Below, one piece after another: positions 191 to 23,189 of a DNA stretch of 32,824 bases. This DNA comes from Fidelibacterota bacterium. GTDB taxonomy: Bacteria > Fidelibacterota > Marinisomatia > Marinisomatales > SCKK01. The stretch's first letter is position 1, and each line of letters opens with the position of its first letter. The stretch is taken from contig JADFPG010000012.1 in NCBI GenBank assembly GCA_022562455.1, positions 1 to 32,824 on the forward strand, given 5' to 3'. Under the pieces are notes generated by a model, which was not told the DNA's origin, did not search any database, and was given only the letters and a program-made list of their open reading frames with translations. Position numbers and translations under genes: made by a program.

Positions 191-213
191 AAAAAAAGCG
201 CCGGGGCGCTTTT
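191..213 (-). terminator. Intrinsic terminator-like hairpin
   Basis: AAAGCGCC pairs with GGCGCTTT around a GG turn. Read on the minus strand the stem is followed by seven T, so it best fits the end of a leftward transcript. The plus-strand tail has only four T. It lies just upstream of the leftward signal-peptide gene and would insulate it from transcription arriving from the tRNA region. Confidence 0.6.
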
Positions 214-506
214 CAGTCACCGGTTTAGCAGTTTTGCTTTAAGCCGCCTGCAAGTTGGTTTAAATCACGGCTTCAACGTTGGTTGAAGTTACTATAATCT
301 AAAATATTAAAAACCTGTCAAACATTTTGTAATCTCCAGATTTTTAACCAAATGACGATGTAGAGGGTGAAAAAAGCAGTTGTGAGAGGAGCGACTTTTG
401 ATAATCATGTAGAATTTCAGACGGCTCCGGGTGTATATCGAATGGTTTTGGGGAAATATTTTAAGAGCCGATTACCAAACCAACTCCACACCTTCCTTGC
501 ATAGAT

Positions 507-853: not shown

Positions 854-898
854 TATGTCGGTCAGATGGTGTTTCTGACGAGTCGGGGTGAAAGGATT

Positions 899-920
899 CC
901 CCGCCTGACGGCCGGCAGGG
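899..920. repeat. REP-like palindromic insertion in tRNA T loop
   Basis: An imperfect palindrome centred on CGGCCG, beginning CCCC and ending GGG, sits exactly between GGATT and AACC of a tRNA T arm. The same placement is seen at 1313-1351. Confidence 0.6.
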
Positions 921-930
921 AACCTTCGAC

Positions 931-961
931 CCTCCCGATTGCCTAACGGCAGATCGGGAGG
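931..961. repeat. Inverted repeat hairpin
   Basis: CCTCCCGAT pairs perfectly with ATCGGGAGG, with an inner GCC/GGC pair around TAA. It stands where the anticodon arm of the tRNA remnant would be. Confidence 0.7.
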
Positions 962-970
962 CGCTTAAAT

Positions 971-1006
971 AAAAAAAACGATTAGCATATTTCTACACTA
1001 ACCGTT
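971..1006 (-). terminator. Intrinsic terminator of tRNA-Pro
   Basis: Read leftward, AACGGTTAG pairs with CTAATCGTT (nine pairs, one wobble) around a 12-base loop and is followed by eight T. It begins 10 bases after the tRNA-Pro 3' end. Confidence 0.85.
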
Positions 1007-1015
1007 CTTTTCTGT

Positions 1016-1089
1016 CGGGGTGAGAGGATTCGAACCTCCGACCCCCTGCTCCCAAAGCAGGTGCGCTAACCGGGCTGCGCTACACCCCG
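1016..1089 (-). tRNA. tRNA-Pro (anticodon TGG)
   Basis: The minus strand folds as a full cloverleaf. Acceptor CGGGGTG pairs with CACCCCG, the D arm contains AGCGCAGCCCGGTTAGCGC, the anticodon stem CCTGC/GCAGG encloses TTTGGGA with anticodon TGG, and the T arm is GGAGGTTCGAATCCTCT. CCA is not encoded. A strong terminator follows. Short pieces of this or a similar tRNA recur nearby as remnants (884-967, 1165-1176). Confidence 0.95.
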
Positions 1090-1122
1090 AAATTTTAAAA
1101 CAACAATCAAACCAGGCTGCCT

Positions 1123-1165
1123 GACCGTTCGTATTCTCCCAAATAATTGGGAGAAGTAGACGGTC
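1123..1165. repeat. Long hairpin next to a tRNA 5' fragment
   Basis: TTCTCCCAA (1134-1142) pairs with TTGGGAGAA (1147-1155) around ATAA. An outer GACCG/CGGTC stem (1123-1127 with 1161-1165) extends it across an internal loop. It abuts a 12-base copy of the tRNA-Pro 5' end. Confidence 0.7.
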
Positions 1166-1176
1166 GCTACACCCCG
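1165..1176 (-). pseudogene. tRNA 5'-end fragment
   Basis: CGCTACACCCCG is identical to the first 12 bases (minus strand) of the intact tRNA-Pro, but the rest of the tRNA is replaced by the hairpin at 1123-1165. Short and only suggestive. Confidence 0.35.
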
Positions 1177-1231
1177 TGATAAGTTTCCGGTGAGGGGTAA
1201 CTCGTGAGTAGTACACTAATGACTGCCCACC

Positions 1232-1312
1232 TTACCAGTAACCAGCTACCATTAACCCCGCCAAATAAAAGGCGGGCAGGCAGTCACCAATCATGGGTGA
1301 GCGATGGGACTT
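1232..1312. repeat. 81-bp direct repeat, copy 1
   Basis: Identical to 1394-1474, offset by 162 bases. It contains a CCCCGCC/GGCGGGC hairpin and the last bases of tRNA-His. The copy ends exactly where the palindromic element begins, inside the T loop. Confidence 0.9.
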
Positions 1313-1358
1313 CCCTCCTACTCCGCCGACTGGCGGATACGGCGGACAGGGAACCCAC
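1296..1358 (-). pseudogene. tRNA-His 3' fragment interrupted by a palindrome
   Basis: Acceptor and T-arm bases identical to tRNA-His (1458-1480) are split by a 39-base palindromic element at 1313-1351; only AACCCAC continues beyond it. The 5' two thirds of the tRNA are absent. Confidence 0.7.
1313..1351. repeat. REP-like palindromic insertion in tRNA-His T loop
   Basis: The element starts CCCTCC, contains the palindrome TCCGCCGACTGGCGGA, and ends GGACAGGG. It is flanked by GGGACTT and AACCCA, which are contiguous (apart from one G) in the intact tRNA-His. Confidence 0.75.
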
Positions 1359-1393: not shown

Positions 1394-1474
1394 TTACCAG
1401 TAACCAGCTACCATTAACCCCGCCAAATAAAAGGCGGGCAGGCAGTCACCAATCATGGGTGAGCGATGGGACTT
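1394..1474. repeat. 81-bp direct repeat, copy 2
   Basis: Exact copy of 1232-1312, here continuing into the intact tRNA-His. Its CCCCGCC...GGCGGGC hairpin could act as the tRNA's 3' processing or termination structure, though no T tract follows. Confidence 0.9.
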
Positions 1475-1532
1475 GAACCCACGGCCTCCTGGGCCACAAC
1501 CAGGTGCTCTAACCAGCTGAGCTACGCCCACC
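1458..1532 (-). tRNA. tRNA-His (anticodon GTG)
   Basis: The minus strand has acceptor GTGGGCG pairing with CGCTCAC, preceded by the extra G-1 typical of tRNA-His and facing C73. The anticodon stem CCTGG/CCAGG encloses TTGTGGC with anticodon GTG, and the T arm is GTGGGTTCAAGTCCCAT. CCA is not fully encoded. The 3' part and its downstream flank are duplicated at 1232-1312. Confidence 0.95.
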
Positions 1533-23085: not shown

Positions 23086-23189
23086 AAAAGATGTCATCTT
23101 TTAGTTTGAATGTTCATAAGATCTTCGTCAAACAATTGCCTGCCTGTTGGCAGACAGGGAAAATTGGCGATAAAGATGACATCTTTTTT
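23086..23189 (+). terminator. Inverted-repeat terminator region after hdrA
   Basis: AAAAGATGTCATCTTTT (23086-23102) and AAAGATGACATCTTTTTT (23172-23189) are each near-palindromic and are also reverse complements of one another. The second, ending in six T, is a plausible intrinsic terminator for the kor-hdr transcript. A REP-like hairpin (23139-23158) lies between them. Confidence 0.65.
23139..23158. repeat. REP-like palindrome
   Basis: CCTGCCTG pairs with CAGACAGG (one mismatch) around TTGG. It shares the GGCAGACAGGG / GGCGGACAGGG ending with the elements in the tRNA region. Confidence 0.55.

Follow-up and report, generated by a model that had tools for sequence, protein, structure and literature searches.

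Several described systems resemble the repeats reported here. Rickettsia palindromic elements (RPE) are short mobile palindromes, best known from coding sequences, and the intervening sequences (IVS) of bacterial 23S rRNA are hairpins that replace loops of RNA helices, lie in functional rRNA and are removed by RNase III. The rtT / tyrT distal repeats of Escherichia coli are tandem repeats beside a tRNA gene that start with the tRNA's own 3' end. REP/RAYT systems (GTAG- or CGTC-tagged) share with the palindromes described below their form as short (20–40 bp), dispersed, intergenic palindromes of several families. In REPs, GTAG or GTGG stands 0–2 nt from the hairpin foot (PMC6006769), and REPs inserted within other palindromes have been published (PMC3733652).

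The stretch of DNA analysed here (the window, 32,824 nucleotides) is contig C191 of a 2.89-Mb metagenome-assembled genome (G000) in 201 contigs. Its LptF has its closest relatives in Candidatus Marinimicrobia / Neomarinimicrobiota, with 89% amino-acid identity to L104, and the divergent lptF gene adjoins a pair of tRNA genes, Pro(TGG) and His(GTG). The genome compared is that of a sister species (G001), ~93% identical to G000 across aligning regions. Around the tRNA pair lie partial tRNA copies, palindromes and a perfect direct repeat (Table 1). As in IVS, hairpins stand in place of RNA helix loops, but the palindromes here are dispersed repeats of DNA, and the tRNA copies that contain them are non-functional. 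The 81-bp His repeat has the same form as the rtT / tyrT repeats, whereas the Escherichia coli case is a single locus without palindromes replacing tRNA loops. On the minus strand, window positions 204–281 match the SAM-alpha (SAM-II) riboswitch below threshold (25.3 bits, E 0.007; gathering score 36), and 3' of this match are a GC hairpin and then a run of T.

Table 1. Intact tRNA genes, tRNA remnants, palindromes and repeats around the His-Pro locus of the window.
Feature	Positions	Strand	Evidence
Pro 3' remnant: acceptor 3' strand, T arm, variable region, D-arm start	882-965	-	alignment 46.1; orthologous loci
T-loop palindrome CCCGCCTGACGGCCGGCAGG, 20 bp, at TTC^GAA of Pro remnant	900-919	.	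direct reading; family flanks
Palindrome CCTCCCGATTGCCTAACGGCAGATCGGGAGG, replacing D-loop/anticodon region of Pro 3' remnant	931-961	.	direct reading; alignment
Intact tRNA-Pro(TGG)	1014-1089	-	ARAGORN; Rfam RF00005, 67.2 bits
Pro 5' remnant CGGGGTGTAGCG (1165-1176) abutting nested palindrome (1123-1165)	1123-1176	-	direct repeat; alignment 28.4; not in L104
81-bp direct repeat, copy 1: His 3' end + 64 bp of 3' flank	1232-1312	-	repeat search, 100% identity
His 3' remnant: T arm + acceptor 3' strand, T loop interrupted	1295-1358	-	alignment 41.8; not in L104
T-loop palindrome of His remnant, 38 bp, nested stems (CCC..., CCGCC/GGCGG), at TTC^AAG	1313-1350	.	direct reading
81-bp direct repeat, copy 2, attached to intact tRNA-His	1394-1474	-	repeat search, 100% identity
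Intact tRNA-His(GTG)	1457-1531	-	ARAGORN; Rfam RF00005, 66.4 bits

On the plus strand, the Pro 3' copy reads GGATTC (894–899), CCCGCCTGACGGCCGGCAGG (900–919) and GAACC (920–924), where the intact Pro gene has GGATTCGAACC. The His copy reads GGGACTT (1306–1312), CCCTCCTACTCCGCCGACTGGCGGATACGGCGGACAGG (1313–1350) and GAACCCAC (1351–1358), where the intact His gene has GGGACTTGAACCCAC. The palindrome CCCGCCTGACGGCCGGCAGG resembles a dispersed CCCGCCTG...CGGGCAGG family, and the tRNA-sense strands at the palindrome sites of the window form strong hairpins on folding. The Pro 3' copy is located downstream of Pro and the His 3' copy downstream of His; the Pro 5' copy, whose palindrome is in the D arm and which directly repeats the 5' end of the intact Pro gene (1078–1089 = 1165–1176), lies between both genes. 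Each flank was aligned with gaps to its own intact tRNA and compared with 1000 dinucleotide shuffles each. No shuffle reached the observed score for any of the three copies, the null maxima being 26.4 for the Pro 3' copy, 29.5 for the His copy and 27.1 for the Pro 5' copy, whose score is barely above it.

A first-pass annotation of this DNA had proposed palindromes in the T loop of two tRNA remnants, and both are real, at TTC^GAA and TTC^AAG, with positions correct to within a base or two. The copy it termed Pro-like is a tRNA remnant, although the label was too vague, as this is a copy of Pro itself. It had also named a covariance-model search as a check on the tRNA similarity: in the window, cmscan scores the two intact tRNAs only and does not detect the remnants, whereas their similarity to the intact genes holds by alignment against shuffles. 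Being incomplete and having their loops replaced, the remnants do not count as tRNAs under the covariance model; elsewhere than in the window, two remnants reach ~17 bits. The palindrome in the D-loop/anticodon region, the Pro 5' remnant and the 81-bp repeat are features beyond those in that annotation.

Among loci orthologous to the His-Pro region, His and Pro are adjacent in L106 and L108 and separated by ~6–10 bp in L107 and L109. The downstream flank of the window's Pro 3' remnant is, in L106 and L108, joined directly to the intact tRNA-Pro. This indicates that the remnant marks the ancestral gene position and that the intact gene now lies beside it, with a different terminator. L104 has no His copy and no Pro 5' copy at the corresponding place. 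An orthologue of the His-Pro locus was not found in G001, and the empty site for the window's own locus is taken from L104, which is more distant than G001. Far from this locus, a palindrome CCTGCCTGTTGGCAGACAGG at window positions 23138–23157 is absent at the corresponding G001 site.

Partial copies of this kind are common in the genus. When each tRNA was aligned to its own flanks, copies adjoined roughly 20 of 35 tRNA genes in each of G000 and G001, after a few hits to neighbouring intact tRNAs in the score lists had been discounted by eye; real copies score up to 99.7, against a shuffle maximum of 29. The copies flank the intact gene in the same orientation; almost all of those upstream carry the tRNA's 5' part, and those downstream its 3' part. 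Palindromes occupy three sites within them: the T loop (TTC^GAA), the D arm (GT[AG]G plus 0–2 nt, then the palindrome) and the anticodon loop. T-loop insertion at TTC^GAA was found in about a dozen tRNA copies in the genus and is seen in relatives too. The clearest case is Gly(GCC), in which all three arms are interrupted: GCGAGAGTAGCT[TCCCGATGAATCGGGA]GTAGAGCCCCACGTTGC[TCCCGACGAGTCGGGA]TCGCGGGTTC[CCCCGATAGATCGGGG]CATCTCTCGCTC. Palindromes within tRNA copies are added successively. The right arm of upstream copies is usually an inverted copy of that tRNA's 5' end (11/12, read by eye), for example GCTACGG beside CCGTAGC tRNAs and GCTACCG beside CGGTAGC tRNAs. Some copies form tandem arrays, with 43-bp units at Lys(CTT) (4 in G000 and 11 in G001) and 75-bp units at Lys(TTT) in G001. 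The 11 Lys(CTT) units of G001 (L062, ~1490–1970), each a tRNA 5' half with a D-arm palindrome, lie directly before the intact gene.

Beyond the genus, the D-arm pattern GTAGCTTCCCGA-N(2-14)-TCGGGA was found in 15 of 61 relatives, against none for the reversed control; outside the order, one genome of the phylum (G199) matches. All 31 distinct copies inspected are located 38–468 bp upstream of a same-strand tRNA, and nearly all match the 5' end of their own downstream tRNA. The T-loop pattern was present in 6 of 130 genomes of the order (control, 0), and 6 of the 8 loci read lie downstream of a matching intact tRNA. Two genomes of the order have a palindrome-split T-arm copy downstream of a SeC(TCA) tRNA, as called by ARAGORN (L154 ~1500 and L149 ~1500).

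The palindromes are not confined to tRNA surroundings. Of 321 family matches in 2.2 Mb, 282 (∼88%) are more than 300 bp from any tRNA, and none lies inside an intact tRNA. Their density per non-coding kb is 1.03 near tRNAs against 0.60 elsewhere, and only 59 of the 321 fall in long ORFs, where the density is 0.033 per kb. Like RPE, they are short mobile palindromes in a bacterial genome, but they are mostly non-coding. As ∼88% of copies lie away from tRNAs, the element is not tRNA-specific. The first-pass view of an element that targets tRNA T loops was therefore too narrow: most copies are without tRNA flanks, a result that the annotation itself had set as refuting the idea, density near tRNAs is just 1.7 times that in other non-coding DNA, D-arm and anticodon-loop sites are used too, and dispersed REP-like palindromes land in redundant tRNA fragments among other places. 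Its other suggestion, spread with broken tRNA copies, is partly right, as copies with palindromes occur in tandem arrays. That the palindromes are mobile and REP-like, and that relatives hold empty sites, is borne out by comparison of G000 with G001, which gave 36 palindromic presence/absence candidates of several families, about 30 of them clean, and by L104 for the window's own His and Pro 5' copies.

Most polymorphic palindrome junctions show 0–3 bp of microhomology, mostly without target duplication, and sometimes a few bases are replaced. At Arg(TCT), an upstream 57-bp insert with a 12-bp duplication (GCCCCGGTAGCT) is present in G000 only, and the downstream copy has its T-loop palindrome in G001 only. 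The Gly(GCC) copy nearest the gene has an intact anticodon arm in G001, which is replaced in G000. In the D arm of tRNA-Ser(GCT), G001 carries a 132-bp insert ending GATGGAGAGGTGG, against the original GATGGAGAGATGG, with flanks that match 100%; the insert repeats the tRNA start with one mismatch and so restores the gene. Some insertions in tRNA genes carry a 12–13-bp duplication, whereas insertions elsewhere are mostly without one, a difference that selection for a working tRNA would explain. Spacers beside tRNA copies are AT-rich, and a donor for those of the Arg, His, Pro and Ser inserts was not found among the sequences searched. Away from tRNAs, a 109-bp insert (L095/L178) combines a palindrome with a ~20-bp flanking duplication (TTCAGCACAATTA..TTTTT), a form like that of the tRNA events.

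In three families the flank favours T at positions -3 and -2 (~0.5 bit where this is stronger), a preference that the T loop TTC^GAA satisfies from either side; no such preference appeared in the TCCCGA family. A junction hairpin test on 31 polymorphic sites gave 5 at p<0.05 (binomial p=0.018; KS 0.014; Fisher 0.0016), with ATCCGTCAG^CTGACGGAT and CCTGTC-ga-cagGACAGG as examples of insertion in a hairpin loop, and two further sites (CGCGCTG^GAAGCGCG and CGCTTC^AGCG) agree with it. Insertion in the T loop is in keeping with a weak preference for a TT[C/G]^ flank and a partial one for hairpin centres. Most dispersed insertions are outside hairpin loops, and nesting in palindromes beyond the re-pairing effect is only marginal. 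General hairpin-loop targeting by all dispersed copies was rejected, the genome-wide permutation of flank complementarity being at most marginal. Within tRNA copies, an automated rule placed 15 of 29 left boundaries strictly in loops (34% expected, p=0.036). Hand reading, with position 12/13 counted as loop-adjacent, places nearly all events at loops; it carries less weight, as the reader had derived the rule from those very alignments. D-arm sites are without the TT[C/G] flank seen in the T-loop families, so insertion may follow two rules. GT[AG]G was rejected as a rule choosing the tRNAs for D-arm copies (~10/12 by hand count against 20/31 isoacceptor types, not significant).

Two traits of REPs are seen here: the short palindromes are many, dispersed and mainly intergenic, and they differ in presence and absence between relatives. 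The likeness extends to insertion into palindromes, as published for REPs (PMC3733652), and to tRNA D-arm palindromes 0–2 nt after GT[AG]G, the REP layout (PMC6006769) with GTAG coming from the tRNA; this fit could be coincidence because most tRNAs carry GTAG. The dispersed families differ in having no GTAG/GTGG tag 0–2 nt from the hairpin foot (0/24, 0/67 and 0/89 strand-flanks in three families), save a minority of the TCCCGA family (21/306, largely tRNA copies). As in REP/RAYT systems, Y1 (HUH) transposase genes with their own flanking palindromes are present in this genome and its sister: the search suggested by the first-pass annotation yielded 5 Y1 genes in G000 and 7 in G001, several of them with such palindromes. 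Most of the small genes L112, L113, L114, L116 and L117 are flanked by a distinct palindrome of their own, and these genes are possibly a set of RAYT-like systems; the hairpins beside L112 (ACTCCGTAGGAGT) resemble a polymorphic 22-mer family. None of the Y1 genes of G000 and G001 was seen flanked by palindromes of the window's families (CCCGCCTG, TCCCGA). Recurrent palindrome insertion at tRNA loop positions, as seen here, is a further difference; we found no description of it in the non-subscription papers searched, on REPs or otherwise.

Overall, we favour, with moderate confidence, a model in which REP-like mobile palindromes inserted into partial, locally duplicated copies of neighbouring tRNA genes while selection kept the intact gene. 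The window palindromes would be members of short (about 16–45 bp) dispersed REP-like mobile families of the Neomarinimicrobiota lineage, and local duplication would give rise to the partial tRNA copies and thus to redundant fragments. Insertion would proceed by a transposase-like step with a preference for a TT[C/G]^ flank and for the centres of hairpins or palindromes, and the T arm (GGTTCGAACC) would offer both. Insertion into a single-copy tRNA would presumably be lethal, and survivors would strike, or arise together with, a duplicated fragment; such lethality would account for the intact gene always remaining. The most likely candidate for the enzyme is a Y1 single-strand transposase (RAYT-like). 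An elaboration that we hold to be quite unlikely gives the order a Y1-type single-strand system with tRNA genes as recurrent landing sites, in which GT[AG]G (tRNA positions 7–10) would be the guide tetranucleotide and TTC^GAA a symmetric target, and the target tRNA end would be duplicated and copied by fold-back along with insertion, leaving an intact tRNA and a target-matched hairpin each time. The inverted copy of the tRNA's own 5' end in upstream copies could result either from fold-back synthesis or from selection that favours a hairpin.

Selection for a hairpin leads to a second model, in which the palindrome-armed copies are kept as processing, decoy or regulatory hairpins in the tRNA transcript. 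The copies retain the tRNA orientation, the window copies within the His-Pro spacer are probably transcribed, D-arm copies are present in many families of the order, invariably 38–468 bp upstream of a same-strand tRNA, and their right arm usually inverts the 5' end of the particular tRNA. We nevertheless regard such a functional RNA as unlikely, as presence, copy number and positions vary between the sister species (Lys(CTT) arrays, and also Arg, Gly, Ser and Phe), palindromes of broadly the same types also occur at scattered sites distant from tRNAs, and the D-arm pattern is restricted to those 15 relatives. The inverted, target-specific tRNA sequence would also fit a third model without mobility, in which fold-back DNA synthesis at tRNA hairpins forms the palindromes on the spot and such replication accidents yield the tRNA fragments as well. 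Template switching or slippage of this kind agrees with the nested palindromes, with the tandem arrays and with the Phe and Lys(TTT) copies of G001, which keep the T-loop bases, or nearly, inside the new palindrome (CGATTCC inside TCC-CGATTCC-ATCGGGA). However, identical palindromes occur at many unrelated loci and are polymorphic with clean empty sites, which requires movement of sequence and not local folding, so that this origin is improbable too. Very improbable is the idea that the remnants are att-site duplications from an integrase using tRNA 3' ends: downstream copies do hold tRNA 3' ends, and the window's 81-bp perfect direct repeat contains that of tRNA-His, but upstream 5'-end copies, which tRNA-3'-end integration does not make, are equally common, loops are replaced by palindromes, and the inserts between repeats are tens to ∼100 bp long without genes or cargo.

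As tRNA genes are essential and usually single copy, insertions beside an intact copy are a readable record of both element insertion and cell survival. The paired empty and occupied sites of the sister genomes allow both the target rule and the duplication step to be tested. For annotation, tRNA-like fragments with odd hairpins in these genomes are to be read as remnants and not as exotic tRNAs.
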